From Larimichthys crocea (taxonomy: Eukaryota; Chordata; Actinopteri; Sciaenidae), in NCBI RefSeq assembly GCF_000972845.2, contig NC_040012.1:10037927-10101926 (forward strand): DNA of 64,000 bases, written 5' to 3'. Positions 9,526 through 64,000 of this stretch are shown one piece after another. Under the pieces are notes generated by a model. It was not told the DNA's origin. It searched no databases and was given only the letters and a program-made list of their open reading frames with translations. The position numbers and the translations under genes are program-made. Numbering within the stretch: the stretch's first letter is position 1; the number at the start of each line of letters is the position of its first letter.

Positions 9526-9526
9526 C

Positions 9527-12500: not shown

Positions 12501-15500
12501 TCCGAGCAGAGCGCTGGAGGGAGGCACAGAGGAGACATATGAAGAACTGCTGCCACAACATCTGTCTATGTAGTGATCGACCGCATTTACATATGAGACC
12601 AAACTGACACTTACAGTGAGAGAGAACATAGCTTGTCTCAACTCTTGAGCCTCCTTTTCTCTTTGATGAATCCTCAGCTTAAAGCTCTGCTTCATGTCAC
12701 CAAGCTGCGTCTGAGGAGAAATATGAGGAAAACTGCAAGTTAAAGTCACTTTTACTTCATTGGAGATGTGAGGGATATTGACAGCAGTCATACCAACATA
12801 CACTGTTTCTGCTGAGTGACTGACGCTAAGCAGGTGTGGGCTGGGAAATCCCAGTGCAGCAACAGGGACGATATCATCCTCTGGTTGAAACATTAAACCG
12901 CGGTCCTGACTCACCGTGGTCATTAAAGATCTGTCGTAGCATCTGTCGTTGAGGCGGAGCTAATTCTCTAACTATTCTGTATGCGAGAGCAATCTGAGGA
13001 TTGTTGTGGAGAAAGTCAAAGGTCAATGGTGAGGTCAGGAAGGAAGAAAGTGTTCAGGAGCCTCTGGTGTCTTATGCTGTATTATTTATTGACGCTTGGC
13101 CAAGGAGAATTAGAGACACTCTCAAAGTTCATCAGAAGTGCCTGAGTTGGTCTCACATTCTGCCCAACTCATCCTGGTGGATCGACTTTAAACCCCAAGA
13201 TAACACCACAAATACTACACGCCCAGAATTAGTCAAAGAGAATGTTTTTATCCATGGAGGTGTTATTGTCAGCATATTCTAGTCTGGAGACATAGATGTC
13301 TGTTTACGCAGATTGGAACGTCAACGGCAGCTATCTATTATGTCTAGGAAGGCAGCAACAGGTCTCTGTGACCCTGGACACCACAGTGTTGAGATAGACT
13401 GGCACCTACTGTTCCCAACCAAAGCCAAACAACTAACACTGCCAAGGACCTCAAGGCCCACACGTGACCTTCTGTAACCAAAGGATGGAAAATTCCATAA
13501 CACTGATTATTTTCTTGATTTATCAAGTTTGTAAAAATTCAGAAGATAGTGAGAAATACTGACACAATAACCCAAAGTAACACTTTTCAACAGTCCAAAT
13601 CTGAAAAAAAAAAAAGTATTCAAAATAATTGGTGGAAAAAGCAGCAAATCATCACATTTTAGAAGCTGGAACCACAAAATGTTTTTACTCAAATAATTTA
13701 CAGTCAACCGACTCATCAGTCAGTTATGTTTCCTTCAGTCTCCAAAAGTGGAACAGGAGCCAGAGCCTTCAGCTATCAAGCTCCTTTCCTTTTTGATAGA
13801 GCGTGTAGTTAGGTCTGACTCGAGTCCTGAATCTCTTGAGTGATGAGGCCTAGACTGCCGGGGGATTTCCTATGATGCGCTGAGCTCTTCTCTTCTTCTC
13901 TCTCTCTACATTTGTCTTCTCCGGAGTCTTTCTCATCTTGCAGGTTCTCATGGATCATGGCTACACCTAAATCAGCAATCAGTCGTGCCTGCTGCTTGAC
14001 GTCCACTACATGTACTGTTATTATTATTATTATTATTATCATCACTACCTTTAGTCATATCACCATTAAAGTGTGTAGCTATAATCATTTGCTGCTGTGC
14101 ATCCGTGTCTCTCTCTGTATCCATTCATCTGATTCTAGCCGATTTGTCTTTATAATATTACAAGAGTACAGTCTACACCTGTTCGGTATGGAAACTAATT
14201 TAATGTTTGGTAGTTTCGTTTGTAACAAAACATCGTATCTTATAAGTTATTTGTATGTTTTGTATGCAACAGATTTAAAAAATATAACAGAAAATTAATT
14301 ATCTGTCAGTCATTTTTTAACACATTTTTTTATTGTATGACCTTTTTTTATTGTATTATCTATTTTTGCTCAGTTCTATTCATTGTTGTCTACTTTATTA
14401 TTATTATTTTGCTCTGTGAAGCTGCATGCTTGCATGAAAGGTGCTCTTATAAATGAGTTTGAGTTGGTTTAATCGTTTGGCTCTTCTTGTACATCATGTT
14501 GGTGAGTTAAATCAGTAAATCAGTCATATTTATAAGCGCAGAAATGTAAATTAAAGCTGTTGTAGTGAAGTTAAAAGTACAACACTGTCCTGTAAAGTGA
14601 ACAGAAAGACTCTTTACTGATCCCCTCCTTGTCTTGACTCAATCCCGCTCTGATACGCTCTGCTGTTACTGCTCGGATTTACCTGCTTCTGCTGTATTTA
14701 CCTGCTTCTGCTGTATTTACCTGCTTCTGCTGTATTTACCTGCTTCGCTGTATTTACCTGCTCTCTGTTACTGCTTCTGCTGTATTTCGGCCTCCACCAG
14801 CACCGTGTCGTGCCCTTTGTGCTCGTCAGTCAGACACAGGTAACAGATGCACTGTTTGTCGGTGCGGCAGTAAACCTCCAGCAGCTTGTCGTGTCGGCCA
14901 CAGATGGTCTCCTGGAGATGTTTGGTGGCCGGCACCAGCTTGTGTTTCTTGAAGGCAGCAGACTCGTAGTGAGGCTGGACGTGGAGGTCGCAGTACGAGG
15001 CCAGACACACCAGACAAGACCTGACAGCTTTGTGTTTCCTCCCGGTGCACACGTCGCACTCCACGTCGCCGTCCTGGGCTAAACTTTGATTTGAAGTGGT
15101 CGCCGTCGTCTCTTGGAGTCCTGTCTTTTTAAANNNNNNNNNNACTTTAAACCCCAAGATAACACCACAAATACTACACGCCCGATTAGTCAAAGAGAAT
15201 GTTTTTACCATGGAGGTGTTATTGTCAGAATTCTAGTCTGGAGACACAGATGTCTGTTTACCAGATTGGAACGTCAACGCAAGTATCTATTATGCTAGGA
15301 AGGCAGCAACAGGTCTCTTTGACCCTGCCACCACAGTGTTGAGATAGACTGGCACCTACTGTTCTCACAACAACAATAATACTGGAGGACCTCAAGGCCC
15401 ACACGTGACTTTGTAACAAGGATGAAAATTCATAACACTGATTATTTCTTGATTTATCAAGTTTGTAAAATCAGAAGATAGTAGAATACTGACACAATAA

Positions 15501-17407
15501 CCAAAGTAAACTTTCAAACAGTCCAAATCTGAAAAAATTATTTTAAAAAATTGGCGGAAAAGCAGCAAATCATCACATTTTAGAAGCTGGAACCACAAAA
15601 TGTTTTTACTCAAATAATTTACAGTCAACCGACTCATCCGTCAGTTATGTTTCCTTCAGTCTCCAAAAGTGGAACAGGAGCCAGGCCTTCAGCTATCAAG
15701 CTCCTTTCCTTTTTGATAAAGCGTGTAGTTAGGGCTGACCGAGTCCTGAATCTTGTAGTGATGAGGCCTAGACTGCGGGGGATTTCCTATGATGCGCTGC
15801 TTCTCTTCTTCTCTCTCTACATTTGTCTTCTCCGGAGTCTTTATCTTGCAGGTTCTCATGGATCTGGCTACACCTAAATCAGCGATCAGTCTGCCTGCTG
15901 CTTGACGTCCACTACATGTACTGTATTATTGATTATTATTATTTTATTATCATCACTACTTTTAGTCATATCCCATTAAAGTGTGTAGCTTATCATTTGC
16001 TGCTGTGCATCCGTGTCTCTCTTCTGTATCTATATCTGATTCTAGCCGATTTGTCTTTTAATATTACAAGAGTACAGTCTACACCTGTTCTGTATGTAAA
16101 GTGTCATGAGATAACTTCTGTTATGATTTGTCGCTGTGAAAATAAAATAAAATTTAATTGAATTAATCAACTAATTTAATGTTTGGTAGTTTTGTTTGTA
16201 ACAAAACATCGTATCTTATAAGTTATTTGTATGTTTTGTATTAACAAAACATCGTATCTTATAAGTTATTTGTATGTTTTGTATGCAGCAGATTTAAAAA
16301 GATAATAGAAAAAAGGTTACAATTAATTATCTGTCAGTCATTTTTTAACATTTTATTATTGTATGACCTTTTTTTTTATTGTATTATCTATTTTTCTCAG
16401 TTCTATTCATTGTTGTCTACTTTATTATTATTATTATTTTGCTCTGTGAAGCTGCATGTTTACATGAAAGGTGCTCTATAAATGAAGTTTGAGTTGAGTT
16501 TAATCGTTCTGGCTCTACTTGTACATCATGTTGGTGAGTTAAATCAGTAAATCAGTAATATTTATAAGCTCTTTCTATGTTTTAAGCGCAGAAATGTAAA
16601 TTAAAGATGTTGTAGTGAAGTTAAAAGTACAACACTTTCCTCTATAGTGAACAGAAAGACTCTTGTTTACTCATCACCTCCTTGTCTTGACTCAATCCCC
16701 GGCTCTGATTACCTGCTTCTGCTGCATTTACCTGCTTCTGCTGTATTTACCTGCTTCTGCTGCATTTACCTGCTTCTGCTGCATTTACCTGCTTCTGCTG
16801 TATTTACCTGCTTCTGCTGTATTTCGGCCTCCACCAGCACCGTGTCGTGCCCTTTGTGCTCGTCAGTCAGACACAGGTAACAGATGCACTGTTTGTCGGT
16901 GCGGCAGTAAACCTCCAGCAGCTTGTCGTGTCGGCCACAGATGGTCTCCTGGAGATGTTTGGTGGCCGGCACCAGCTTGTGTTTCTTGAAGGCAGCAGAC
17001 TCGTAGTGAGGCTGGACGTGGAGGTCGCAGTACGAGGCCAGACACACCAGACAAGACCTGACAGCTTTGTGTTTCCTCCCGGTGCACACGTCGCACTCCA
17101 CGTCGCCGTCCTGGGCTAAACTTTGATTTGAAGTGGTCGCCGTCGTCTCTTGGAGTCCTGTCTTTTTAAATCTCTCCACCACGTCCGCCAGCATGGTGTT
17201 TCTGGCCAGAGGAGGCCTCGGGTTGAAGTTCTGCCTGCACTGAGGACAGACGAAGACCCCCAGGTAGTCGTCCTGGTCCCAGTAGTTCTGGATACAGCCC
17301 GAGCAGTAGCTGTGTCCGCACGGGATGGTCACAGGGTCCCGCAGGACGTCCAGACATATCGGGCAGTTGAACTGGTCCTTGTCCAGAACCACTCCGGCCT
17401 GAGCCAT
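9527..17407 (-). CDS. Second TRIM gene, RING/B-box/coiled-coil, no PRY-SPRY exon seen
   Basis: Tandem paralogue of the neighbouring TRIM gene, a predicted RING-type ubiquitin ligase. Exons in gene order: 17407-16808 (200 codons, start MAQAGVVLDKDQ), 12710-12615 (96 nt), 12513-12280 (234 nt), 12189-12039 (151), 11963-11862 (102) and 10762-10664 (99), all phase-consistent. A last exon probably lies at 9827 or 9807 downward. RING Cys15/Cys18 and CGHSYC, CPQCRQ are present. B-boxes follow (CDVCTGRKHK, CGRHDKLLEVYC). Coiled-coil exons show the TRIM signature ending HTEDHVHFLQ. After that the protein is proline- and serine-rich (VGPPNPAAQLNTTQPSDG, PVNPLNPFLCPGPL) instead of B30.2. The terminus is uncertain: acceptor 9807 (strong pyrimidine tract) gives a short tail ending at TAA 9742-9740; acceptor 9827 gives a longer frame to 9526. 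Exons 1 and 2 are 4 kb apart, with a repeat and an assembly gap between. Confidence 0.75.
9940..10110. repeat. Dispersed short element, copy 2
   Basis: This carries the same motifs as 7430-7560 (ATTAAGGCTTAGAGTTATGC, CTTTGATTGACAGGTAGGT). Just upstream, the TCTCTTTCATGTAGGTAGAC segment also matches 7130-7160, so both the flank and the core are shared with the intron of the first TRIM gene. A dispersed element or a duplicated intron block would both explain this. Confidence 0.55.
13001..13483 (+). repeat. About 0.5 kb interspersed repeat with residual coding capacity, copy 1
   Basis: This segment recurs inverted at 24030-24270 (partial) and 25084-25595 (full), and again at 15144-15420 in the local duplication. 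One frame reads peptides such as DAWPRRIRDTLKVHQKCLSW and another reads HHSVEIDWHLL, the latter also intact in the 25 kb copy. The family is not recognised; decayed transposon coding sequence is likely. It lies in intron 1 of the second TRIM gene. Confidence 0.7.
14019..14040. repeat. (TTA)n microsatellite
   Basis: A run of TTA triplets, also present in interrupted form in the duplicated copy around 15926-15950. Confidence 0.9.
14681..14787. repeat. 19-bp minisatellite next to truncated RING exon copy
   Basis: Degraded copies of ACCTGCTTCTGCTGTATTT, some with deletions. This is the copy-A counterpart of the regular array at 16711-16824. Confidence 0.8.
14768..15133 (-). pseudogene. Truncated duplicate of TRIM RING exon (B-box part only), cut by N gap
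   Basis: On the minus strand this reads the B-box portion of the second TRIM gene (CDVCTGRKHKAVRSCLVC, CGRHDKLLEVYC, HKGHDTVLVEAE). It starts inside the exon right at the gap, so it has no RING and no start codon. It matches the complete exon at 16808-17407. It could be a real partial duplication, but the identity and the gap favour an assembly duplicate. Confidence 0.7.
15134..15143. other. Assembly gap (10 N)
   Basis: Ten N bases separate the two copies of the 2 kb duplication. The true distance and order across the gap are unknown. Confidence 0.99.
15144..17170. repeat. Local tandem duplication, copy B (right of the N gap)
   Basis: Second copy of 13185-15133, continuing into the intact RING exon. 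It lacks scattered single bases relative to copy A. It also contains an extra internal repeat of about 46 bp (ACAAAACATCGTATCTTATA, twice, 16200-16290). Confidence 0.85.
16711..16824 (-). repeat. Six-copy 19-bp array that includes the RING-exon splice donor
   Basis: Six head-to-tail copies of the plus-strand unit ACCTGCTTCTGCTGYATTT start at 16711, 16730, 16749, 16768, 16787 and 16806. On the minus strand each unit supplies a CAG|GTAAAT splice donor. The donor that keeps the TRIM frame is the first one read, with exon end at 16808. Confidence 0.85.
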
Positions 17408-17652
17408 GGTCGAAAGTACCGGAGAGAGAGACAGACTGTGAGAAAACACGGGAACCGAGCTGACAGACAGCTGCTGCTGCTTTGTTTACAGGAAGTGGAC
17501 GCGAGGGGGCGTGGTCCAAGAGAGACGTCACCGGAAACTAACAGGGATTTAAATCTTTAAAAAACCTAATTTCAAAATAATATAAATTAAAACTTAAATC
17601 GCTTAACTAGTAGATTAAGTTCTGTTTTTTTTCATGTTTAATTTTTTGTTTT

Positions 17653-21458: not shown

Positions 21459-22458
21459 TCACTTATTCTTCTCTTCCAGTCCGCTCTCCGCTCGCAGGGC
21501 CTGGCTGCTGGCTGAGATGTAGCTGATCCAGTGTTTAAGGTCCTCGGGAAACTCGGGGCACTCGATCTGAATGCACAAACATAAAATTAGCAGATCACTC
21601 AAAACCCAATGAAGCCACAACCTGGAGCTGAAACAATTAGTAAATATACTTTCAGGTTCTCAGAATGTATATTTGACGCCTTTATTTGTCTGACGTTTAA
21701 AAAAAAAAAAAAGAATATCTCTGGATACCTTTTAGTAGTATGTGACATAACATCTTTAGACATCACTCTGGGTTTTATCAAGCTTAAGTTCAACTTTGTG
21801 TGTTGTTTGTCTTGTGTTGTTTGGGGAAAACAAACAATTTGACCACACCACCCCAGGCTTTAACAAACCATAAAAGCATTGCTCAATAAAAAACAACAAC
21901 AACGTATTGTTAGTTATAACACTATCACAGTCATACCAATACTTCTCTCCACCTCACCTTCCTCTTGCAGACAAACTCGATGATGCTCTCCGGGCTGCAG
22001 CGCACCACATTCTGCCTACAGAGCATGATGGCAGAGACAAAACCGTCTTTCTTGGACACGAAGCGCTGCTCCAAGTAAAACGCCTTCTCATCCCATCCGA
22101 GTATTTTGGTCCGAATCTCAAAGGCCTCACGGAAAGCCAGGGAGCGCCGGTATCGGATAGTGGAGGCCCCTACTACCATTTTAGCCCCCAGTTTACGCGA
22201 GGCCATGAACAGCCCGTTTCGCATGTAATGGTGGAAACGGGCAAAGTCACACTCCCTCAGGTATCGGGAGTTGTTCATGTGGCCCATGTAGTCCAAATCA
22301 TGAGGAAGGACCATGCCGTCAATGCTCTGCTCGACTAGAATGTCCCATATTCGGGGTTGGAACCAAGCTTCGATGAACACTTGGGCCCCCCGTAGGAAGT
22401 ACCATACATCCAGACTGCAGAAGAGCAGGAGGAGGGCACCCAGCACCAGGAGCAACAT
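21459..22458 (-). CDS. them6: THEM6-like protein, copy A (thioesterase superfamily member 6)
   Basis: THEM6 is a hotdog-fold, membrane-anchored protein of the secretory pathway; whether it hydrolyses acyl-CoA is not settled. Coding exons: 22458-21958 (167 codons) and 21566-21459 (35 codons plus TGA), phase 0, total 202 residues, close to the usual length near 208. The start [20 protein letters not shown] is a single N-terminal membrane segment. The family core is [20 protein letters not shown], followed by [13 protein letters not shown] and [20 protein letters not shown]. Exon 2 is [20 protein letters not shown]. An acceptor (TTTCAG) lies 4 nt before ATG, so the 5' UTR is spliced; a matching donor is at 23725. 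Its tandem paralogue is 3.6 kb upstream in gene direction. Confidence 0.93.
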
Positions 22459-22624
22459 CTCTCTGAAAGCACAGTCCAAATATTAGTGATCAGAACCAAA
22501 ACAAATTCAATATTACACCCACGGTGTAAGAAGGAGAGGTTCACCTCTGCTGCTGTCAGACTCTACAACACCTGATCAGGTTGTAGTCTCCTTTTTTTCT
22601 ATTTTATTTAATTCATACCTTGCA

Positions 22625-23010
22625 GTTATTATTTGTATCATGGTCACTTTCTTTTGTAATATTATTTATATTATGGTCACTACTCTTGCAATAATATTAT
22701 TATTTGTATCATGGTCACTTTCTTTTGTAATATTATTTATATTATGGTCACTACTCTTGCAATAATATTATTATTTGTATCATGGTCACTTTCTTTTGTA
22801 ATATTATTTATATTATGGTCACTACTCTTGCAATAATATTATTATTTGTATCATGGTCACTTTCTTTTGTAATATTATTTATATTATGGTCACTACTCTT
22901 GCAATAATATTATTATTTGTATCATGGTCACTTTCTTTTGTAATATTATTTATATTATGGTCACTACTCTTGCAATAATATTATTATTTGTATCATGGTC
23001 ACTTTCTTTG
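22625..23010. repeat. 71-bp minisatellite, about 5.5 copies
   Basis: TTTGTATCATGGTCACTTTC recurs with exact 71-bp spacing (its G at 22635, 22706, 22777, 22848, 22919 and 22990). Each unit contains two related halves (ATGGTCACTTTC and ATGGTCACTACTC). It lies in the 5' UTR intron of them6 copy A. There is no spacer diversity, so it is not a CRISPR array. Confidence 0.95.
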
Positions 23011-23724
23011 CAATATATCTTACACTATGGTCACTTTACATTACAATACTCTTTTTATATATTATGCCACTTTTATCCTCAGTACTCTGTTTTGAAGGTT
23101 GATTGTTTTTCGGGTTTATTGTGTAGGTTATAGATATTTCTGTCTGTTTATTGTGTTTTTTTGCCTTTTCTACTTTTTTCTAATCTGTAATATATGCTAC
23201 ACTTTCCTCTGCTGCTGTAACAAGTAAATGTCCCCGTGGCGTGGTGGGATGAATAAATCTAAATCTAATTACAACAGCATTTTAATGTGACATAAGCAGC
23301 TGAATTTATGGCAAAAAAACAAAAAAAAAAGGGAGTTTCTAAATTCATGACCACACTCAATATTTAATGCTCCTTTGACCTCACCAATGTCAGTGCAGGA
23401 GGGGAGAAAAGAGACAAAACGTGCTTTACAGCTGGTTGGAACAATATTATGGATTTTAAATATGTTAGAAAGATATTCACATGATCACCCACTTCAACCT
23501 TGAGAGAGAGGAGCAGGAAGCTAACGCTGCTGCTGCATTAAGATGAACTGCTGTCACAGCATTAGGTCCGTTAGCTCTTAGCCGCCGGTAGTTTGGTGGC
23601 CTTGGCGGGATTCAAACACAGCTCCTGAAGCTCGAGCTCACTGTCTCTATGTTTTCTCAACGTGGGAATTTAAGAAATAAGCACATACACGCTGCGACTG
23701 TGTTTTTCCGGCGGTAAGACTCAC

Positions 23725-26021: not shown

Positions 26022-26743
26022 TTATTTGTTCTTGTCATCCAGTCCACTCTCGGCTCTGAGGGCCTGGCTGCTGGCAGAGATGAAGTTGACCCAGTGCTGA
26101 AGGTCCTCTGGAAACTCCGGGCACTCCACCTGCAAGAAGCAAACCATAAACTCAACATCGTTTAAATATTAATACTAATTATTTTTAATTACCTTTCCAG
26201 TGTAAAATGTGCACACGTGTTTAATCATCTGTTCCTCACCTTCCTCTTACACAGGTGCTGCATGATCTTGTCTGGGCTACTGCGTATGATACTCTGCTTG
26301 CAGTACATGACGGCACACACCAGCCCGTCTTTTGTGGACACAAATCTCTGCTCCAGAAAAAACGCTTTGTCATCCCAGGTGACGATGCGGCTTCGCAGCT
26401 CGTACGCCTCGCCTAAAAACAGAGCCCTGCGGTAACGGATGGTGGTGGCCCCCACGAGCATGGTTGCTTTGAGCGCTCGCAACGCCTTGAACACACCGTT
26501 ACGCATGTAGAGGGAGAAGCGGGCGAAGTCACACTCCCGGAGGTAGCGAGCGTTGTTCATGTGGCACATGTCAATGTCGTTGGGAGTGACCCGGCCTGTG
26601 AGGGTCTGCTCTGCTGTGATATCCCTGATTGGAGGCTGAAACCAGGCCCGGAGAATCACAACAGCTGCCTGCAGGAAGTACCACACATCCAGACTGCAGA
26701 AGAGAGCCAGCAAGGCCACAAGCACCCACAGCAACCACCACAT
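26022..26743 (-). CDS. them6: THEM6-like protein, copy B (tandem paralogue)
   Basis: Coding exons: 26743-26240 (168 codons) and 26129-26022 (35 codons plus TAA), total 203 residues. Exon 2 has the same length, 108 nt, as in copy A. The N-terminus [20 protein letters not shown] is a membrane segment. The core reads [20 protein letters not shown], one residue shorter before HMNN than copy [21 protein letters not shown] and [20 protein letters not shown] follow. The exon 2 start [20 protein letters not shown] matches copy A closely. By eye the two proteins share roughly 60 percent of residues, so this is not a recent copy. The 5' UTR is again spliced: the acceptor is at the ATG and the donor at 28028. 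Same predicted location and role as copy A. Confidence 0.93.
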
Positions 26744-28027
26744 CTCTCTAGGGAACAGACGGACAAGAAGAGGAAGGCAAGGGTGTCACTCTGATGTGTA
26801 GACAGGATGTAAATGTGAAGTAGAAAAGTTATTTCAAATTGAAAAATCCATTTTTACAAAAGCAAGAAGTTAAAAAATCACTTAATGAGTTATATCACAG
26901 CTTGTACTCATCATACTGCTACACAATAATCTTAATATTAGTTAATATCGCGAGGAGGATGTCAGCTCTATCTTGGAGGCAAATTGATGCACGCAGGATA
27001 ATGTTTAGATAAAGGAGATGGCATCTTGTATTGTATTGGAGAGACTGACTTATATAACCAGAGGAAAGGGTGCAGATTTTATTCACTTGTTAAATGTGAA
27101 GTGTGTGAAATGTTTTGTGGAAACCATGACTACATTGTTATAGATTAATTTAGAAATACTTATTATTGTTATTGTCCATTTGTGTATGTAAAATATATGA
27201 AACATTCATTAAACATTTTGTTTTTTCAAAAGAAATATCAGCAAATATTAATACCCACTTTGCATTGCTTCAAGCTGATGTGTTGCATTGTTGCAAGGTT
27301 TCAATAATTAACAGTAACAGAGATTAAATTGTTCAAATGAGCCAAATCAGTAAGTATTTGTGCCTCAACAATTGTTCAATCTTTTATTAATGTTAAGAAT
27401 TTAATATTCTGATCAGCTCAAAAGCACAAACGACAAACAGGAGGTCTCAGTCATAAAACATTGAATCAGATCACAGTTATTGTTGTTTGTAGACGCCAAC
27501 AATTCTCTCTCAGGTGTGTCCCCCTCTATAATGTTGACATGAAACCTGGGGCCCACCCTTCAGGTAATTCACCCCATAACAGGCCTGACAGAGAGTTACA
27601 CCACAAACAAGCCCATTGTGATACAGCGAGACTGCTGCAAAACTACATTCAGTGTTTCCACTTTTCAGGATGCCTGTGCAGTGATTTAACATGTGAACAG
27701 GTGGAAACAGGTTCTGCAGGAGGAACTGGCTACCTGTGCAAAACAACTGCATGTCGCAACTTACACAGCCAGTTTAGAGTAAATAATAAAAATCTATTTT
27801 CATTCATTTTTAAATACTAAACCCACATAATGAAGTAGTTGCTATTAAAGTTGTGCTGACTCTGGGATTAAAACTAAACCTGTATGAAATCAGTGCAGTG
27901 ACAGCTCGTTGTGCACGTCGTTAATAACACAGTTTAATGTTTAGTCAGAGATGTAATTCACAGAAGGTCAATAAACTGATACCGATATTAACAATTACAG
28001 ATATCTGTAGAAATCCTGTGAACTCAC
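26744..28027. other. 5' UTR intron of them6 copy B
   Basis: About 1.28 kb, AT-rich. No coding exon or recognisable RNA gene was seen. It separates the coding exons from the predicted 5' noncoding exon. Confidence 0.55.
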
Positions 28028-28929: not shown

Positions 28930-29022
28930 TCCTCCACCACTGAGGAAATATCAGGATCATCTATCCTATTTGGAAAATCCACCACTGAGGAAATATCAGG
29001 ATCATCTATCCTATTTGGAAAA
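28930..29022. repeat. Tandem duplication of about 46 bp
   Basis: CCACCACTGAGGAAATATCA and the following ATCTATCCTATTTGGAAAA occur twice in succession. Confidence 0.9.
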
Positions 29023-29428: not shown

Positions 29429-29434
29429 TTTATT
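29429..29434 (-). promoter_or_regulatory. Candidate poly(A) signal of the SAM-VWA-E2-U-box gene
   Basis: Plus-strand TTTATT reads AATAAA on the minus strand about 165 nt downstream of the stop codon at 29596-29598. Confidence 0.45.
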
Positions 29435-29595: not shown

Positions 29596-30078
29596 CTACT
29601 CCCATGTCTTGATTTGACGAGAACGATGTTCCATCACCATTTTCTTCATGTTGGGGTCCGCTGTGACATCACCCATTTCAAGCTCATTTTCTGGACCGGC
29701 CAAAGGATCATACTGGTGTCTGCAAAAGAGCGTACGTTTAAATGGCAACGCAGCGGATGTTCGACTCTCTTGCTGCATTAGCAACAGTAAACTGTGACCA
29801 AAGATGATCCTGCGTTTCTTTACTTTGACAGAAGCCAGAGAACCAAAAACTAAAGCAAAAGATGGAGATCTGTTTCTGGTGGTCAGTCACTTAAGCAGCC
29901 ATTACTGGGAACTTATCGTCAACAGCAGTAAATGTACTCACTGTTTCAGGTGTTCCTCAATGGCCCTGCGTTCATACACGGTGCCGTAAACCGTTCTCAC
30001 AGGATCAATAAACATCTTCTTGGTCAGTGGACACATCAGGTGTTGGGGTACAAATTGTTGCACAGAGTCCACCAATTT
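29596..30078 (-). other. U-box domain exons (residues about 1003-1088)
   Basis: Two exons, 30078-29942 and 29719-29596, read QHLMCPLTKKMFIDPVRTVY, GTVYERRAIEEHLKQHQYDP, then LAGPENELEMGDVTADPNMK and a basic end HRSRQIKTWE. Spacing and residues (CPLT, DPV, G-TYER-like GTVYER, I..HL, P) match the U-box consensus, a RING-like fold without zinc ligands that recruits E2-ubiquitin. Confidence 0.9.
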
Positions 30079-33000
30079 CTTTAAATAAAATAACACAACA
30101 TAAAATATTACACCAGACATGTTAGGAGTGTCACAATTCTGTCCAATTTCGTAATTTAATTCGTATTATGGCTTTAAATTCTTATTTAAAAAGATGAGCG
30201 ACAGAGTATCGAGTGCAATATAAGTAATTCAATAAAAAGAACTTACAACTGGGAACAAACTATTAAACACAAAAACAAAAAGGCACCTGCAAAAACCTGG
30301 ACACTCAACACTTGAAAGCTCATTTTGATCAATTTTGTGATACTGTGACGCCCATAAAACATGTATTAACAAAAAAGGTTACATCCATCACACATTTGCA
30401 TATCTGTATTTGTATATTTATAGCAGCTCATTTACTTTCTCCATGTCATCCAGTGAGTGTCCTGCTGTTTCCTCTGTGTGTTTCTCGGCTTCTTGTTCAT
30501 ACGTCTCACGGCTCGTCAGGAATTCTTCGGCCAAAATGCTTTCAAAGAAAACAGATCAGATTTTTATACACTTGTTTATTGTAACGTCTAACAAGAAGAG
30601 TTTGTAGTTTGTTCTACTACAGCGTTGAATAAAATCTAAGAAAACAAAACCATGAGCATTATAATATGGCCGTAGTTTTTAGCAGAGCTACTCTACCGCA
30701 TGATATTTTATTGTACAGCTGAGGCTGTTATTATCCTCTGAATAACAAATATCTCTTGATAAAATTATTTTTGGTGCCTGCCTACCTTCATACAAAGCAT
30801 GACTTATTATTGAATGTGTAATATGCGTCACCTGTCCAGTGGATCATCAGGCTCAGGGATGATGAGCAGTCCGTACACAGCTTCGAGGATCTCTCTCATG
30901 GTGATGTGGGCATTGTAGTTGCGGTCAAATATGTTGTGGCAGATGCGTCCCACACTGTTGACATTGCAGTGGTACACCTGTCATCATGTTAAGAAAAACA
31001 AGGTGCATTGCTAACATCATTACTACTCATGAAGTAACATTACTTCATGAATAATTAACAAATACTCTTAGAAGTGCAACAAAAAATAAAGAAGTCTTTT
31101 AGTTGTTTGTATTTTGTATCAGGATACTTGTGTGACAAAGCGGACGAGTGGAGGCTTCACTGGGTACTCGGGGCCAAACTGGCAGTACAGCTCAAACACT
31201 CCTTTCTCATACGGGCCAAACTGGCAGTACAGCTCAAACACTCCTTTCTCATACGGCGTGTCAGGAGGACCCTCCATGAGAATCTTCCAGAACGCTGAAA
31301 ACATTAGAAAAAAAGCTTCAACTTTATTGCTATTAGAAAAGCTTTAAGCTATACCAACATGTGCTGAGATTATCAGCACTAAGACAGATGATTTAAATGT
31401 GACAAAAAGGGTGGCGTAAAAAGGTAAGACACTGATGACAAAAGAAAAACAGAAAACAAACATTGTGATGTGCAGAGTAAACTATACTGTTTTTAATACA
31501 AAGTGTTTGTCTTTATGCATACAGACATAAAAACATTACAAGATGCCCTAGACTTAAATGCCACTTACTGAAGTCTGACTCTGATGGAAAGACTCTGAAG
31601 AAGGGATGAGGGTCACAATGCAGACTCCTCAGCTCCGCCATGATACGTTTGTCCTTCTCGCGAAAATAATCCCGTGGTTTTAACTCGGATATCCTCTTTT
31701 TCAGAGTGCTGCTTAGAAATATTATTAATGCTTCAAATGAACAATTAAAAATTTCAACAATTTCTAGTTTATTATGACTTCTATCACTCACCACTCTGTC
31801 ACTGTCACTTTGCTGTTTAACTGGCTTGGCATGGACGTCTCTGGAGATTCGTCATACCCGTGAGTAGCGAAGATTGTTTTCAAGATATCCTATGAAATGA
31901 CAGAGCGAGCACATGAAGACAATGTGCAAAGTTTTCACATCAGTTCCAACAGGATGGTGGATAATGATCTACCACAACTAACCTCACTGATGGAAGACGG
32001 GTCAAGTTTTTCCTTCAGTGTCCTCTGCTCCAAAGAGAGAACAGTCTCAATCTCAAAGAGCCTCAGACCCTCTTTGGTTGTCTTTGGTTTGAAACAGCAA
32101 CCACCTGAACACAATATGGATGAGTGGTGGAGAGGTCAACACGCATCTGAATAACCGCACAACCAAAGAAGCTGTGTTGAAATCTGGTGTCAAATACACT
32201 TTTTTTTTTTTTTTTTTAAGAAAAAAATGATTCAGCATCCTATCTGCATAGCTGCAATCCTGAATGACCGAAGGGTTGCACAGCATTTTGGTGCATTGAT
32301 CAGGTTATGTACTGGCCACCATATTCTCTGGATTTGAATCTGATCGAACACCTGTGGGACAATCTGGATCATCGTGTACGCTGCAGCTGTTGGCAGTGGG
32401 ACTCAACAATAGAACTTTGTGTAGTGCTATTGGAAGATTGGGATACGATTGTTTTCATTTCTTGGGCTTGTTACTTTACTGTTTTTTGTTTATTTATTTG
32501 CTTCATTTTGTTGTCTGATATTTTGTTTGTCATGAAATGATAACCATGAACAAATAAAACCGTGGAAAACGTGGAAAATAAAGAAATGATTCAAAAATTA
32601 CCTTAAAACTCATAAAAATGCAATAATGTTAATAACAGTCAAAAAACTTGCAGAGAATGTTTGACTGTTTATAGCATTAATTTTACACTTTGATGCATCA
32701 TTTAGTGAGTGTATCACAGTATATCACCTTTTATTAAGGACGCTTTCTTTCAATGATGCCATACCTGTTGCATTGCTGATTCCATGCAGCATATTGTTCT
32801 CCACATTTCCAAGAAGGATTGAATCCACAATGATGTTGGAGTTTAGCAGTTTGGCGGTGACAGCGACCGGCTCTATGGAGGATCTAAGATAAGAAATTAG
32901 ATCATGACGTCAGAAGTTGCTCAAGAGGTCGAGTACTAACAAGGTACCATAACTGATTAGAGGAATTTACCCAGAATCATCTCCATCAGTGAGACACATG

Positions 33001-36000
33001 ATGCGAAGTCTGCACTCTGGGAACCTCGCTTTGACCTTTTCCAGCTCGGACGCCCCTCGTCGCAGAGCGTCGTACAGCAGAGTACATCCGCTCGCCTCGA
33101 GGTTACGGATGTGTTCCTACAAATTCAAAACAAACAAACAAAAACCTTTAAAATCTCTATTCAGACATATTGCTGAATTTCACTTGAATGCAAATTCTAA
33201 AATAAAAGACGGGACAGAATTTACCTTGAACTTTTCCAGATTTTCAGTGAATGTGTGGAGAGTTTTCACCATGGAGTCGAACTTCATGAGGCCAATGATG
33301 TGATAGAAATCATAAGCCATGCTCCTTGTTGCAAAGTTGTCAAAGAGCTCTTTGACCACGTTTATTTTCTTTATTTCTGCACTGTCGTAGCACTCTTCTT
33401 CCATCGAGGAGCTTGTATCTATCAGCACCTGAAGAAAATTCAAGTCAAGAATATATTGTAAGTTTACCTCACTGCTGATTTAGTAGAAACTTCTTCATAT
33501 TCATTTTCAAAAGTGGATTTAAATGCTTAAGATGCATTGGAGTACTTGGAATACTCCTGCGGGTGCAGTGGCTCTAAGCTAATGAGAGCATCTCCACAAT
33601 AATCAAGCAAAACATAAATGTAAAGTCCCACATTCTGCAGAACAAAAAAAGGATCAAACAAGAGATGAAGTGTTACCAGTATTGCTTCTTTTGGACATCT
33701 GGTTGTGACAAATGTTCGATCATCTCTATGGTCACCGGTCCTGTGTTAAATGTCAACAATCAGCAACATGATTCTGCGACTTTAATATAGGTTCATACAG
33801 TAAAGAAAAAAAAACATCAACTGCACTATAGCTTTATCTGTTCTCACAATTTTTTGTGCTACTTATTTTTTGTATCAACAACAACAGTAGACTGTCTCTA
33901 TTTGTGCAGGTAAAAAACAGTAATTGCTATAGAAAGGAGAACAACCTATAGTACACATGTACAGAAAAGATATCCATAAATACAAAAATACATTATGAAG
34001 TATTATATAAATGCAAATGTTTGGAAGGCAGGTCTGCAGGTCACATACACATGATAAACTTTTATATTGTCATTTCTTGCCTCAATATTTCTGTTTTTAT
34101 AGACCTCATGTAGTAAATCCTTTTTTTATTTACATGACCTGTAATATGCAATTGTGTAAAAAGAGGCAGGATGAACATTTAACAATAATGCAGAGTTTGA
34201 AAATGAATTGCATTATTTTTCAAATGTATGATTATAACGTTTATAATGTGTGACCTGAATGGAACTGGACCTTAAAAAGTATCACTGGTAACACCTGTTT
34301 TTACTATTTCATGTAAAAATGGCTACTGTGAAAAAAGGTCTATTCTGCTATGACAGGAATGTAAAACTTAAGGTGGATACTGTGATGCACTCACCTTGCT
34401 GCCAACAGATTCACATCCACTGTTTTTCGTTTGCCATCCAAACAATCATGCACGTGGATCATATCTGGAGACCCTTTGTCTTTTTGCAAACTCACACCAA
34501 GGTTGTCTGTGAAGACAAGAAAACATTAAATAACAATTTACATGACAAACGATTCCCACAAACATATCATGTTATATCAGAGCATGTGGTGCACGCTCAT
34601 AATTATTGACATTATTAATATTATTATTATGTAGAAGAGTATCTTTTCACTGCTTGTGTAACGAGGAATCAATGTGAACCAGGCACAGATTCTTGACACA
34701 CACAAAAGTACAAAACAAAAATGTACAGTAGTGCAGTAAATATTATTGTCCATCACTGGTCAGTGTTTAGGGCTAAAGATCTGTAGGGAAACATTTGCTG
34801 ACTGTGGTGTATCTTGACTGATTGCCCCGCAATGGCGCACGTAAAAATGCATGTTTTAATGTCTCTTATAGCCATTGTGTATGTGCACAGTCAGTCAATG
34901 CAGTACCTTCGCTCAGCAGGACAAGGCGATTCTCACAATGTCCGAGCTCCTTCAGATGCAGAGGTGGGGTCACATTGAGGTACTGATTGGAGGGAGCTTT
35001 TAATTCTTCCACCATACTGCCAAAAGTCTTCTTCATATCTATCCGAAAGCTGTACAAGTAGGTAAAAAACAAGCTTTAAATTTAAGGCATTGTGTTTCCC
35101 TGTTTCAAAGGAAAAGGAGGCGTACTTGTGTGTTTACCCTCCACTACATCTTTGTGCCATCATCAGGACAAACGTGACATTTTTATCCTCTTAAGGCTTG
35201 AAGAATAGAAAAACATTTAATGTCTTGGTCATTCAGTCTATAATTTTGATAGGATCATGAACATTGCGGTCTGCCAGTCAACATTTAGATGTTTTATTGT
35301 ACTGTATGTTGTCTATTATAGCTCATCTGTACATGAAATGACTGAAAGGAAAAAAAGTAAAAGTAAAACTTGGATGACACGTACTTCTGATACTTTATCT
35401 TGCCACGATTAATCCACAGAGGATATGTTTTGATGGACGGAGGCAGACTGAGCAGGATTTTTTCAATGTCGTTGGCTCTCTGTAATGACGTTTCTTTCAA
35501 AATCTCTTCGGTGCAGTTTGGAATTTTCTCTCCATCTAAACAAAAGGATAGAAAAGGAAAAAAGAGGCTGATTACACCTTATAGTTCACTAATAAAACAA
35601 CATGTCTTAGAGTTGGTACAACTAATGCTCAAAATCCATACAGTTAGGATTCTCCTGTCATGCCATGAACAACCAGAATCAGAGTGTTTGATGCAGACAA
35701 TACGTGCGATTTCATACAAACATAATGACATTATAACAAAGACTTTAATTAGGTTTGATGTTTGTTGCAGTGAGTGCCAGTAGCTCACTGAACCGACTTA
35801 TCTCACTGGACTCCATATTTTTCCTCTTAAACAAGCTGCTTTCCAACAAAAAATAAGAAAACCAGAAATTTGTGAACTGTGGGGAAAGTTATTATTATTA
35901 TTACCGGTCAATGTTTTAGCCTCACCTTTGATTTTCTGGAGAACGTGTGCTCGTTCAAAGACGCCGGGTACTCCGGGCACCCTGACTGGTTCGCAGAAAC

Positions 36001-38991
36001 GGCTGCCATCTTCAGCCGTGAGAGTGATTGGTGCGAAGTTATCCTTGACCGCTGCCTGTTTCTGTCAAAATATTGCAAAGTGAAAGCTTACTTCAGCGGT
36101 CAACCACTGAATCTTAACTCAAACGTAATGTGTTCATAAATACATTCAAGTCATGCACATGCACCACCTATAAGCTGAAATTAATGGCGACATCAGTCAT
36201 GATACCTTTGCCTCTGATATGAGGTGTGCCCAGCAGTACAGAGAATTCTCAAAGACATCCAGGTCCTCGATGACTTTTTCTCCTCGTTGTGTTCCGCGTT
36301 GAGGCAAAAGCTCTCTGAAGAGTATGTACAAGCCCTCAATGACTGCAATCTACAACAACAAGCACATTTCAACGTCTGAAACGATGCAGATCATTTGTAT
36401 TTCATCGACTGCTGTGACTAATGCAATGAAGGCAAAAGTATTTTTTATTGTTGTGGTAGAACGAGAAAAAAAAATGGGTGTGTTGTTTCTGCTCAGTCTG
36501 TACGTTATCCTGAGTAAATGTGACACTGTTTCTTCTCACTGTTGTAAAAAAAAATCTTGAAATGTTTTATTTATGTACCAGAAAACATTTTCAAGATCTT
36601 AAATTTCCTGCAATTTTGCGCAAAAGTCAAATGTTTCTGCAGCAGTTACAGTATGTGATATATGAATCATTAAAAAACACCCACTTCAAAAAAATAAAAA
36701 ATAAAAATACAATGCAAATGATATTAAAGGCAGAATTATACCAGCTCATGTTGTTTACCTTCTGGTTCCTGGTCAGCATTTCATTCCTGCAGAGCAACTG
36801 ATGCAAACTTTGGGCGAGAGGATGACATGTGGTCAGTTTTCGTATGTAGGAGATCAGTGTCTCTTTCTTTGTTTTATTCTGATGTTTCTGAAAAAAACAA
36901 CAACAACAACAAAAAACAGATTAACTGGTGTCATCTGTATCATGATCATCTTAGTTCATATTATATGTCATACGCTGCTCGCATAGCTTTATGACTTTCT
37001 GGCTAAATATTAGTGGCTTTCCATGTACGAGTAATGAACGGTGCACTTTGTGTGTTTAGTCTCTGCATAATGTTACATAATGGAATACAGATGATGAAGT
37101 GCAAGGGTCAAAACAGAGCACAGTATGTGTATAAAGAAATAAAACTTACAAGAGCATAAAGTGAAGATAAGAACACGCTGATTCCTTTCTGAGTCTGCTG
37201 GACTGACGGCACAACATCATGAATGAAGAACGTCTCATTGTGCGGAGTATCGTCAGGAAACGTGGACAAAGAGAAGTGAAGTGTTGAGCCCTGAGAGATT
37301 CCACAGCTCTGCAGTGTGTCACCACAACTATGTTGACCTCTGCAAAGGAGAAAATGAATCACTGTATTCACACCGAGGATCATCAGGGTCACGATCGTCT
37401 GTGTGTGATCATGCTGATTTACTTGTAGCAAAGGACATGTGCTGGGATTCCACTTTCATTTGCCAGCTTGAGTCTCAGACTGGTTATGGTGTCACTGGCC
37501 AAGTTCACCGTCACCTCAAAGTATCCCTGTACGAAATAAGTTCATAAAAAGAACATATACATTCATCAATAAATGTTTAAAATATAATGCAATCCCTAAA
37601 GTGTGTAATAAACAATAAACAATGCCATCTTACTGTAGAACCCCTATGGAGGAAGTTGTGCATTTAACTTTGTGTCTGGTGTGATCAGAACAGACCGGAC
37701 ATGACTAGTGACTCAAAAAACAGAACGTATCGTAGATCGTATCACAGTCCAATCGTGGAACAGTAATATAAAATATGGTTAGTGTATTGTATTGTTAAAA
37801 TCAAATACAACAAAAATAATTAATCAGTTGCTAAGGCCATCATACGTTTTATTATTAACCAATATAGTGAAGACGCACCTTGAGCATGATGTGGCATCGA
37901 ACCACATCGTCTCCATAGGTCTCGCGGACCTCTCGTTTTTGTATAGAAAGAGTCTGTTTCAGGTTTTCCTTCGGTGTGAAGATGGCATAGATTACATCTT
38001 TGTTCTGAATATGTCTGTCTTTCAAAGACCCTGTGGGGACAGAATTTTGAGTTAATACAGAGAACTTGTTAGCAGTTTGTATTTACATATCCAGCGTTTA
38101 CGCAGCAACATTGATGCTCATTTGTGTTTGTGACTCTGTTTTTGGTCTCCACTGACTCCTGAGCAAGATATTTGGCAATATTGGGTAACTATGCTGATAA
38201 TATGAACTTTAACATCTAATGTTAGTCTGCTCACATGTGTTGAAGAAGGGATCATCTGTCAAAGGCATGCCATCGGCTGTGTAGAGACAGACTCCTTTGG
38301 AATTGCCAATACTTTCAAGATGACCGATTCTTAACATCAGGTCCTCGATGGTGTTTTGAGCTGGATCCATATCTGCATGTGTAAAAAAAGAGACACTGTT
38401 AACCTGTTCACTTCAGCATGTGAATGTCGATCGTCTTATTTCTGACAAAACACAGGCTGGGTTATGAAAGATGTGTTTCTCTTACCTCTGATTTGTTTCC
38501 CTTTAGGATATTTAGGGTATACGTAGCGCAGATAGTACGGCTCCAGTGATTTTTGCACAGGGGTCACAGTTTGAACTTGGCGCTCTGGAGCTCTGAGTCT
38601 TTGAATGGAGTCTTTCATGGAGGAAAATCGATTCCTCTCCACATGACTTAAACCTGTAAAAAAGTGGAAGAAGACACTATACCCTTCAAAACTACCATCG
38701 ATTTAACCATTTAACTAAAACCATTTAACATAAGCTATTTATTATAGGAGTGTTGTACTGGGTTGTGTTTCCATGGTTTCCTATTAGTCTGGTCACCCGG
38801 TGCTAGAGGTATGTATGAAAGTCACTGCAGATATTGATGTAAATGTTGAGGTTCATCTCACCCAGGTTGTTTAAGTCTTCATCTGTAATGCTATCCAAGA
38901 AATCTCGTTCATCCTTCACGCCCAACTGGAAAAACTGGTTGTAGTAAGATTCCAGTCTGAACTTCTGAAGTATGTTGAATATTGCAGCCAT
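29596..38991 (-). CDS. Multidomain ubiquitin-system protein: SAM, two UBL-like regions, VWA, E2 (UBC), U-box
   Basis: A 24-exon gene of 3267 coding nt (1088 residues), with phase agreement at every junction. Exons in gene order: 38991-38862, 38653-38486, 38372-38235, 38030-37879, 37526-37423, 37339-37150, 36887-36759, 36349-36206, 36061-35926, 35535-35385, 35049-34907, 34506-34395, 33740-33677, 33428-33225, 33116-32971, 32883-32765, 32104-31983, 31889-31792, 31708-31569, 31294-31128, 30977-30832, 30538-30436, 30078-29942, 29719-29596. Domains: SAM (about 1-65), UBL-like (about 100-160 and 197-255), helical region (about 295-400), VWA (about 583-745), E2 (about 830-1000), U-box (about 1012-1080). 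The E2 and U-box imply conjugation and ligation by one chain; SAM and VWA suggest assembly or ligand binding. No signal peptide or membrane segment, so probably cytosolic. I do not recognise a named vertebrate gene with this architecture. Confidence 0.88.
30436..31708 (-). other. E2 ubiquitin-conjugating (UBC) domain exons (residues about 817-1002)
   Basis: Four exons. The first has the N-terminal helix (KRIMAELRSLHCDPHPFFRV), the second GPPDTPYEKGVFELYCQFGP and EYPVKPPLVRFVTQ, the third YHCNVNSVGRICHNIFDRNY with LLIIPEPDDPL, and the fourth the C-terminal helices (ILAEEFLTSRETYEQEAEKH). The catalytic cysteine is Cys932 in GRICHNI. The usual HPN tripeptide reads HCN at 922-924. A 14-residue tandem duplication interrupts the sheet region. 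Confidence 0.9.
31171..31254 (-). repeat. Exact 42-bp in-frame tandem duplication inside the E2 exon
   Basis: The 42-bp unit at 31171-31212 is repeated without a mismatch at 31213-31254. It duplicates 14 residues, YEKGVFELYCQFGP, at 878-891 and 892-905. A normal UBC fold has one copy of this strand. Confidence 0.97.
32200..32400 (+). mobile_element. Decayed Tc1/mariner transposase fragment
   Basis: The plus strand reads YSLDLNLIEHLWDNLDHRV, close to the Tc1-like motif ending with the catalytic region (SPDLNPIEHLWD type). Only a short piece remains, next to a poly(T) run at 32200-32217. It lies in an intron of the minus-strand VWA gene. Confidence 0.75.
32765..33740 (-). other. VWA (von Willebrand A) domain exons (residues about 583-745)
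   Basis: Four exons read AILVLIDTSSSMEEECYDSA, SGCTLLYDALRRGASELEKV, CRLRIMCLTDGDDSG and NIIVDSILLGNVENNMLHGI. The metal-ion-dependent adhesion site is complete: Asp591, Ser593 and Ser595 (DxSxS), Thr667, and Asp699 in LTDGDD. The following exon (CCFKPKTTKEGLRLFEIETV) continues the VWA C-terminal part. Intact MIDAS residues suggest metal-dependent ligand binding. Confidence 0.9.
37150..38372 (-). other. Two ubiquitin-like regions (residues about 100-160 and 197-255)
   Basis: The first region reads TIEDLMLRIGHLESIGNSKG, VCLYTADGMPLTDD, then WSLKDRHIQNKDVIYAIF. The second reads YFEVTVNLASDTITSLRLKL, ANESGIPAHVLCYKGQ, then CGDTLQSCGISQGSTLHFSL. The pattern of strand, helix (I..L...I / ITSLRLKL), GIP and L.D.G/ S.G.. 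is that of ubiquitin-like folds. Neither has a C-terminal GG, so they are built-in domains, not modifiers. The second is convincing and the first weaker. Confidence 0.65.
38486..38991 (-). other. SAM domain exons (residues 1-about 65)
   Basis: The start MAAIFNILQKFRLESYYNQF, then GVKDERDFLDSITDEDLNNL and GLSHVERNRFSSMKDSIQRL, follow the SAM pattern (five helices, TDEDL..LG, R....I..L). The ATG follows the acceptor TTCTGTTCAG directly, so the 5' UTR is in an upstream exon. Confidence 0.85.
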
Positions 38992-39136: not shown

Positions 39137-39322
39137 CAAAGCGCCCGCCCCGTGTGTGCAGGCTACAGTCCTCGCTGCAGCTGGCCCCGGTTTGAATCCC
39201 GTATCGGACGGCAAATTTACTGCGTGTCACTCTCCCTCTCTCTGCCCCCTGCTTCCTGTCTATCTTCAGCTATACTATCATTAAAAGCATAAAAGCCCAA
39301 AAAATTATCTTAAAAAAAAAAA
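39137..39322 (+). repeat. tRNA-like SINE fragment
   Basis: GCGCCCGCCCCGTGTGTGCA with CAGCTGGCCCCGGTTTGAAT (B-box-like GGTTTGAATCCC) and a tail AAAAGCCCAAAAAATTATCT plus poly(A) match a SINE-like element common in fish. It is not a tRNA gene, because no cloverleaf is complete. Confidence 0.7.
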
Positions 39323-42980: not shown

Positions 42981-45451
42981 TCAAACGGTGGCTACTAAGC
43001 TTTGCTCCTTCCTAAAATGACCATTTTTATTTCTATCAGGCCCATTGTGACTTCTTCTACTGCCAGCATGAGGATGAAAACTCTCAGTACTCTTCTTTCT
43101 GTCATTATCTGCCCGCGCTGTTGTTGACATTAAACTCCCTCCACAGGTACTGTTTCGTGTCTTTGGTTTCCCTGTTGTTGACACAGAATGGTCAGCACTA
43201 TCACTGCAGTCGCTGCCTGCCTCACAGTCAGTGGATGAGGTGATAGTATTGATGTTTCTTGACCTCCATGCTGGACTGCTTTTTCTCTCCGTCTGTGGTG
43301 ACAAATCGCGCTCTCTGCTCGGGCTCTGAATGCTACGATGGCATGATAGATGGGTTTCGTGCACGGCTGAGATTCTTGGAGTTTTTATTTGAAAGTTAGG
43401 ACTAGGAGTCCTGCAGTGGAGATCAGCACTATCTTCTTCTGAAAAGAGACTGCAGCGGTGCGTGGAGTTAACCATTATCTGGTCACTGGCAGGCCGTGGA
43501 GGTGAAGGGGTGAAGTGTCTGTTCATGAGCCCAGACGAGGTGATCCTGTTACAGATAGTTTGTGTTTTCCTCGGTCCAGCGGAGGCTGACGTGCTTCTGC
43601 GCTGTCCATGAGTCTGAGATAGTGAAGGACTGTTAATTAGTCTAACTGATGAAGAGTTCCTGCTTGGCGGTGCACTGAGTGGTGGTCTGGGTTTAGGATG
43701 GCACAGAGGTGGAGGTGGATGTGGTCGCAGTGGGACTGATGTAGGGCTTAAAGTTTGCAGAGTCTCATCAGAAACACTTTGTCCTGCTGACAGTCTGAAC
43801 GAGAAGAATCAGTGAAAGTACAGTAAGAATAGTTAAAATAGGAGACACACATTACCAGAAATTGTGAAGCATTGTGAAGAAGAATTAACTGTACAGTGTA
43901 CAAGTACAGTGTGAGTGTTTTGCCCTCCCTCTGCTGGTCAAAGTGTGACTCTCATCTCATTCTAATGTGACTTATATGCAGTTTCTAATACGCTGCCTGG
44001 TCAGGCCTGATTGGCAAAACTTGTACAGAGTGGACAGAATCCTTGACTCTCTTTCTTTCTCCTCTTGGCCTCAGGAGAAGCCATCTTAGTTGTTTCTTTA
44101 TCTTTATTCATTGGTTTATTTGGTGCAGTGTTTACAACCACCAAGCATTCTGGTTTGAACCTCAGCTGGGGCCTTTTCTGTGTGGAGTTTGCAAGTTCTC
44201 CCCGTGTCTGTGTGGGTTCCCTTCTTCACTTAACAGGTAAATTAGTGACTCTAAATTGGCCATAGGTGTGACTGTGAATGGTTGTTTGTCTTGTGCCACC
44301 GTGACCCTGATGAGGATAAGTGGTTACAGATAATGGTTAGATGGATGGTGGTTTAGGTTATGTGTGCCTGAGTGGGTCCCGTCATTCCCTTTACATTATA
44401 TTTGTATTAAATTTGTGTCATTTAAAAAAAAGATCAAATAAAGTCATTTTTCTGCTTGATTCTGTTGTAGCAGTAAAACATACTAACCTGAACCTGTTTC
44501 TTAATTCCTTCAAAGGCAGAGAGGAGGGAGCAGGCGGTGAAGCATCAAAAGAAGAGGGGTAGAGCTCCAAGTCCTTTTGTATAACTCCTCTAAGCTCTTT
44601 CAACTCTGCACAAACACGAATGAAACAGTGATGAGATCTGAAGAAAGTACTGAAGCGATCACGCTGACTGTGTGATTGAAACAGACTGTCAGATACTTCA
44701 TTACAGAAAACTATCAAAAGATAACAATCATCTCTGTAGATGAAAAATAAAACGCTCATTTTCAAGTTCTGCAAATGAACTGCTCTCTGATGTACCCAAT
44801 TTGGTTTAACTGTCATTTGGCTCGGTGTGGATGAATTTGGCTGAGGTCCTCAATCGTTCTTTCATTCATAAATATGTTTCAGGGTGAGTTCCACCAGTTA
44901 ATGGAGGGTGGGTAAAATTATCAACGTGCTCATTTCCATCTGTAAATTTACTCTCTGAGCTAAAGATTAAATGGGACGTGATAAAGAGGAGAACTGTCCT
45001 CAGACGCCGCGTGTCAAACAATAACGTGCCACCAGGTGGCGGCAAACAGCAAAGAGTTGGAGTATGAACTCACCTGCAAGCGTCGGCTCTGATGGGTCAC
45101 ACTGACTCTGACACCTTTGTTTAAGATTTCCCTGCGAGACACACAGTCACAGAAAGAACTTGTGTTAGTCGTGCAGCTTGAGCGTCAACATAATACTGTA
45201 CGGCACAAACTGGGACACGTTCAGTGTCGTGATGTGGGGGAAAAAAGAGATGGTAAATGTATAAAACATGTTCGAGGAAGCGAGAGCTTCTGGAAATAGC
45301 AAAGGAACAAGAAAAAAAGGATATAAATAACAGCGCGAGAAACAGGAAAGGAATGTGTGTGTGCGTGTGACCGCTAAACGATTGAGCAGCAATGTTCCGT
45401 CATAATTTGGCCTCAAATATTTATATACAGAGCAAATGAAAACCATAGTGC

Positions 45452-63961: not shown

Positions 63962-64000
63962 GTAAGCCTGAAAGTGATGACACATGGTAAATTGCAAAGA

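Follow-up and report, generated by a model that had tools for sequence, protein, structure and literature searches.

A Larimichthys crocea gene predicted to encode SAM-like, ubiquitin-like, VWA, E2 and U-box regions in a single polypeptide

Results

Structure of the gene

A stretch of 64,000 nucleotides of Larimichthys crocea contig NC_040012.1 (positions 10,037,927 to 10,101,926; hereafter the window, whose own numbering is used throughout) was analyzed, with emphasis on a minus-strand gene whose predicted product combines a ubiquitin-conjugating enzyme (E2) domain with a U-box of the kind found in ubiquitin ligases (E3). The best reading of this gene is one multi-domain ubiquitin enzyme, which would have the order SAM-like, ubiquitin-like, VWA, E2 and U-box. 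Its coding region, running from 38991 to 29596, consists of 24 exons, which join in frame to give 3267 bases encoding 1088 amino acids and one terminal stop. All introns of this model are of the GT-AG type, with lengths of 83–660 bp. An earlier interpretation made from the letters alone (hereafter the sequence-only reading) had proposed 24 exons, 1088 residues and a catalytic-type Cys932, and the joined exons proved it exactly right on these points. The gene and its immediate surroundings contain the following features:

29596..38991, minus strand: coding region of 24 exons, from the ATG at 38991 to a stop whose last base is 29596 (joined exons in frame)
38486..38991, minus strand: SAM-like region, residues 6-48, exons 1-2 (SAM profiles, under the Pfam cut-off)
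37879..38653, minus strand: residues ~73-173, exons 2-4, one of two regions earlier proposed to be ubiquitin-like (no family matched)
37150..37526, minus strand: ubiquitin-like domain, residues 206-256, exons 5-6 (PF00240 match)
31983..33740, minus strand: VWA domain, residues 586-752, exons 13-17 (VWA_2 and VWA profiles)
30436..31708, minus strand: E2 (UBC) domain, residues ~837-988, exons 19-22 (UQ_con and E2 matches in PDB)
31171..31256, minus strand: exact tandem duplication in exon 20, unit of 42 bp (14 residues, YEKGVFELYCQFGP twice; tandem-repeat search)
30939..30941, minus strand: Cys932 codon, aligned with the E2 catalytic cysteine, context GRICHNIF
30079..30435, minus strand: intron 22, 357 bp, between the E2 and U-box exons (splice-pair scores, read-through)
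29596..30078, minus strand: U-box domain, residues 1012-1079, exons 23-24 (PF04564)
29429..29434, minus strand: AATAAA, candidate poly(A) signal ∼160 bp past the stop codon (pattern only, common in this AT-rich stretch)

The model was compared with the output of a gene finder, a plain dynamic-programming model whose splice and codon tables are approximate. Started from the same ATG, it returned 19 exons, recovering 17 of the 24 model exons with both ends and exons 11 and 20 with one end right; exons 8, 21, 22, 23 and 24 were missed. For exons 8, 11 and 20, the donor scores lie under the cut-off of the program, whose chain met a stop in exon 20. Placement of the exon with the E2 catalytic site and of the two U-box exons relied not on the script but on sequence, reading frame and domain content. 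When all ATGs were allowed, the real sequence scored 159.7 on the minus strand, compared to 26.0 on the plus strand, and 100 dinucleotide shuffles gave a maximum of 15.6 (mean 8.1). Chance open frames were ruled out as the source of the model, since every one of the 100 shuffles scored 15.6 or less. At the level of sequence the gene model is sound, with an intact reading frame that should be splice-able.

No second copy of the gene was found in the window, where tblastn with the predicted protein (E up to 1) matched only its own region. Two elements resembling mobile DNA were noted by eye: part of intron 16 (660 bp), at ∼32230-32540, resembles the 3′ end of a Tc1-type transposase, and the segment just upstream of the gene, at ∼39140-39300, resembles a tRNA-derived short interspersed nuclear element (GGTTTGAATCC box), for which Rfam and ARAGORN report nothing.

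Domains of the predicted protein

The VWA domain was matched by Pfam profiles above their curated cut-offs in the whole protein (VWA_2, 3.5e-10; VWA, 1.8e-8) and when the segment was scanned alone (4e-11 and 8.2e-10, respectively). All five positions of the metal ion-dependent adhesion site (MIDAS) are occupied, by D591, S593, S595, T667 and D699, as assigned with the MIDAS pattern (DxSxS, T, D). The same segment has no close sequence relative in PDB (best E 0.092), and its four NCBIfam matches are weak and lie far under the cut-off.

Pfam gives strong support to the E2 domain, as it does to the VWA and the U-box. UQ_con matches the whole protein in two stretches at 2.9e-35 (121.3 bits, cut-off 27), and the best 60 of 289 PDB matches to the segment all hit E2s, chiefly UBE2D, UBE2E and UBE2N types, with E-values down to 1.5e-24. 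The HxN motif reads H922-C923-N924 (HCN), so that its asparagine, N924, is retained, as is the PDDPL segment; V909 occupies the position of UbcH5 F62. The idea that HCN in place of HPN marks a dead E2 was dropped, since UBE2E1 in PDB carries the identical HCN. Cys932 is predicted to form a thioester with ubiquitin received from E1.

The U-box was matched by PF04564 at 2e-11 (44.3 bits, cut-off 21.4) in the whole protein and at 9e-13 (48.6 bits) in the segment alone. A control showed that this cut-off is not strict on its own, since a TRIM RING exon of the window reaches 23.3 bits with the same profile and so narrowly passes it. The sole cysteine within the domain is Cys1018, and the domain is therefore not a zinc RING. 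Together, the scores of 44–49 bits and the single cysteine argue for a true U-box.

These results bear out much of what the sequence-only reading had proposed for the central and C-terminal parts of the protein: a VWA with a complete MIDAS (profile match and five MIDAS residues), an E2 with catalytic Cys932 (UQ_con above cut-off, cysteine aligned) and a C-terminal U-box (PF04564 above cut-off, RING zinc ligands absent). Its account of the N-terminal part held only partially. The proposed SAM domain corresponds to weak profile matches at residues 6-48, which fall below the curated cut-offs both in the whole protein (SAM_1, E 0.0024, 18.6 bits) and in the N-terminal segment alone (SAM_TNK, 4.1e-4, 20.8 bits, cut-off 25; SAM_1, 17.5 bits, cut-off 23); a SAM domain is likely there. 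One of the two proposed ubiquitin-like regions was recovered as a marginal match to PF00240 at residues 206-256, reaching 25.8 bits (9.1e-6, cut-off 25.4) in the segment alone and 21.6 bits (1.9e-4), below the cut-off, in the whole protein. Weak matches of this segment to ubiquitin were also found in PDB, the best of them (7.8e-6) to a three-ubiquitin chain. The other region, residues ∼73-173, found no support, as it gave no ubiquitin match when scanned alone against Pfam and its single match (E 0.13) was to an unrelated family. Residues ∼261-574 had no meaningful Pfam match.

Continuity of the chain

The Pfam matches to the E2 (ending at 988) and the U-box (starting at 1012) are separated by 23 residues, compared to the ∼10–20 residues given by the sequence-only reading. 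A gene boundary between the VWA domain and the E2 was considered and judged very unlikely, because introns 17 and 18, which lie between them, are only 93 and 83 bp long, which is short for such a boundary, and because the VWA match extends to residue 752 and crosses the exon 16-17 junction (residue 743). We infer a single transcript across all 24 exons, and consider it likely that one chain carries both the E2 and the U-box.

A duplication within the E2

Each of the five printed alignments with E2s accommodates the stretch duplicated in exon 20 by gaps that total 14 residues. The window was scanned for exact tandem repeats with periods of 15–399, simple-sequence units being removed. Four exact doublings were identified, with periods of 44 (5568-5656), 43 (16199-16284), 45 (28933-29022) and 42 (31171-31256), the second of which lies within an imperfect repeat (2.2 copies) that extends slightly further. 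The same scan revealed 19-bp arrays at 14.7 and 16.7 kb and a 71-bp array at 22.6 kb. The occurrence of four doublings of nearly equal length within 64 kb suggests that the one in exon 20 is an assembly artefact, perhaps a systematic error, in which case the true E2 would be of ordinary length. A real, young duplication in exon 20 is possible.

Surroundings of the gene

Neighbouring open frames match Pfam profiles of TRIM parts, the eEF1-beta acidic region, thioesterases and VWC2L-like proteins, a content that fits a bony fish. A cluster of TRIM genes on the minus strand (3586-17485) places more E3 ligase genes near the E2-U-box gene, and comprises the following Pfam matches:

3586-4185, minus strand: PRY-SPRY
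6195-6551 and 11788-12678, minus strand: coiled coils
8402-8998 and 16769-17485, minus strand: RING and B-box

Within this cluster, two adjacent blocks of ∼2 kb (13185-15133 and 15144-17170), containing one RING/B-box TRIM exon together with an incomplete copy, share stretches that are ∼91% identical and are separated by ten unknown bases (15134-15143); the pair represents either a tandem duplication or a duplicated assembly. Two thioesterase-superfamily frames on the minus strand, presumably THEM6-like, lie at 21937-22482 and 26231-26785 (4HBT_2, 6.4e-28 and 1.7e-25) and are ∼69% identical in DNA. The 71-bp array is satellite-like, with 5.8 copies at 22626-23035 (98% matching). A 275-codon open frame on the minus strand (42984-43808), Ser/Pro/Arg-rich by eye, has no Pfam match at E 0.01, and a VWC2L-like first domain on the plus strand (63605-64000, 3.4e-13) lies in a frame cut by the window end. 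Neither Rfam (gathering threshold) nor ARAGORN produced a match anywhere in the 64-kb window.

Discussion

A single-chain enzyme acting in cis, and the points against it

We tentatively favor the view that the gene encodes a single-chain E2-U-box enzyme acting in cis, although our confidence in it stops somewhat short of an even balance. In its favor are the frame and splice model, the domain matches, the retained E2 residues (Cys932, N924 and PDDPL) and the CHIP contact positions that the U-box keeps. In such an enzyme, the E1 would charge Cys932, and the U-box, on its tether of ∼23 residues, would hold and activate the charged E2, either that of its own chain or that of an adjacent molecule where chains oligomerize through the SAM-like end. 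Choice of the substrate or control of access might fall to the VWA and ubiquitin-like parts. Similar roles, with the VWA as a target-recognition or metal-sensing part and the SAM as an oligomerization part, had been suggested by the sequence-only reading, and they are guesses. Its proposal of a chain that could load and pass on ubiquitin with no help from a partner E2 is a hypothesis against which specific points can be raised.

These points concern the E2, the U-box and the junction between them. In the E2, the second residue after the cysteine is Asn934, compared to Asp in all five aligned E2s, and loop L7 reads Y940-N941-A942-H943, compared to W-S-P-A in the same five; V909, in place of UbcH5 F62, changes a further contact residue. 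According to the parts of PMC2396629 covered here, CHIP requires the S-P-A motif of its E2, and an E2 that lacks the motif is not a cognate partner of the CHIP U-box; by this test the present E2 lacks what a CHIP-type U-box calls for. The 14-residue repeat, if real, would also disturb the E2 sheet. In the U-box, alignment with CHIP was used to locate the contact residues listed in the same paper, with CHIP numbering counted from the residues that it names. The CHIP/STUB1 U-box, studied with UbcH5a, shares with the present one the U-box fold and the contacts E259, H260 and P269 (E1044, H1045 and P1053), and I235 corresponds to L1020. In contrast, F237 is replaced by K1022, R263 by Q1048 and, apparently, R272 by G1056 (one residue past the printed alignment), and the V264 position falls in a one-residue gap. 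F237, R263 and R272 help CHIP to bind UBE2D, and R272 touches the E2 (PMC2396629, parts covered). At the level of splicing, none of the other 22 junctions scores as low as the exon 22-23 pair, with its sum of −1.5.

As far as the alignments indicate, the usual E2/U-box interface is altered on both faces. This may reflect co-adaptation of the two in cis, or it may be that the pair has ceased to work in the classical way. Because both contact faces have changed together, the E2 and the U-box may fit each other and not the common partners.

Alternative explanations

The altered contact residues on both sides are also what would be expected if the U-box of this chain did not serve its own E2. The E2 might then act as a hybrid on its own, for which UBE2O, whose E2 ubiquitinates substrates without a separate E3, sets a precedent (PMC12109548, parts covered), or the U-box might recruit an E2 of the UBE2D/UBE2N kind for a second step. 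Against the latter stand the differences from CHIP at F237, R263 and probably R272, which make this U-box no obvious recruiter of common E2s, and the tight tethering of the two domains favors a role in cis; we consider this explanation rather unlikely. An improbable extension of the same doubts is that the protein is a scaffold in which the E2, the U-box or both are no longer enzymatic. Asn934 in place of Asp, N-A-H in place of S-P-A, the changed U-box contacts and the repeat within the E2 would all fit such a loss, but the catalytic cysteine, the HxN asparagine and PDDPL, whose loss one would expect in a dead E2, are kept. Moreover, Asn replaces Asp at this position in some active E2s (UBE2S, UBE2M), and the repeat is possibly an assembly error.

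A different objection is that the E2 and U-box exons belong, at least partly, to separate transcripts. Since the exon 22-23 junction scores lowest, the two domains might not share an mRNA, and it is precisely there that a break would have to fall. Read-through into intron 22 reaches a stop at ∼30420, after MEKVNELL, giving a protein that would end with the E2; an ATTAAA lies within the intron at ∼30155, and the frame of exon 23 is open upstream to 30165, with an ATG; the U-box exons could form another product. An E2-ended transcript is therefore possible. Nevertheless, an intron of 357 bp would leave scant space in which one gene could end and a new promoter lie, and stop-free in-frame joins of exon 22 to exon 23 are available, two in number, of which the modelled one is the better (−1.5 compared to −3.2). 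We give separate transcripts a low probability, and a single-chain enzyme acting in cis stays the preferred interpretation.

Relation to known proteins

The sequence-only reading states that E2 and E3 functions normally reside on separate proteins, which holds as a general rule, and yet E2/E3 hybrids are known. BIRC6 is a very large E2/E3 chain, resembling the present protein in having a UBC domain near its C-terminus and differing from it in having a BIR domain and no U-box. We know of no mammalian counterpart of the L. crocea gene. The E2-U-box chain is best read as a variation on the hybrid idea represented by UBE2O (PMC12109548). Both are single vertebrate chains, but in UBE2O, according to the parts of that paper covered, the E3 activity resides at Cys617 in the CR2 domain and not in a U-box. 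By name, UBE2O is absent among the best 60 of the 289 PDB matches to the E2.

A survey of animal U-box genes from 2010 lists seven main human genes and a doubtful eighth, Act1, and its Results text mentions an E2 domain for none of these (PMC3087547). In the same text, Mb_UBOXa of Monosiga, a VWA and U-box gene whose relatives include ones from Naegleria, Trimastix and Spironucleus, is called "not present in animals". This gene, compared here from the text alone, shares the presence of VWA and U-box on one protein, but the text attributes neither an E2 nor a SAM to it. WDSUB1, an animal U-box protein with a SAM domain, differs in having WD40 repeats, and neither a VWA nor an E2 is mentioned for it in the parts covered (PMC3087547). 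Further partial parallels, again in the parts covered, are the VWA among the domains accompanying U-boxes in a Chlamydomonas survey (PMC4378952) and the mention, in a separate context, of UBCc or U-box domains in PARPs (PMC2964712, PMC4245714).

In the open-licence literature, searched by title or abstract start (subscription papers and sequence records being outside this scope), none of the papers listed was about a VWA-E2-U-box protein. An E2-U-box fusion is likewise absent from the parts covered of a survey of the ubiquitin system (PMC4327156) and of two reviews or inventories (PMC7029713, PMC11354881). The E2 plus U-box segment had no match in NCBIfam. Scans with the U-box, VWA and E2 plus U-box segments yielded 7 and 4 pattern matches in viral contigs (2 of 8 scans) and 22 in bacterial and archaeal genomes, none of them a relative; both are unlikely homes for relatives of a fish gene. 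Sequence databases may well hold unnamed orthologues. Overall, the interpretation put forward by the sequence-only reading receives partial support: the order of the domains and the catalytic residues agree with an E2 plus E3 on one chain, and no described protein of this order appeared among the papers listed, but its second ubiquitin-like region found no support.

Implications

The boldest proposal is that the gene represents an undescribed vertebrate family, in which the E2 and the U-box would have co-evolved in one chain, E1 and ubiquitin would suffice for activity, the common E2s and E3s would no longer be paired with it, and the VWA and SAM-like parts would act as gates. We regard this as doubtful, though worth stating for its consequences. 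If true, the seven main U-box genes treated in the 2010 survey would be joined by another from an animal, possibly an animal counterpart of the protist VWA-U-box gene; the animal U-box inventory would have to be revised, and the question would arise as to which vertebrates keep the gene. If the chain charges and passes on ubiquitin alone, it would provide a natural model of the way in which an E2 and a U-box adapt to each other once permanently joined, as well as a compact E1-only tool for ubiquitination.

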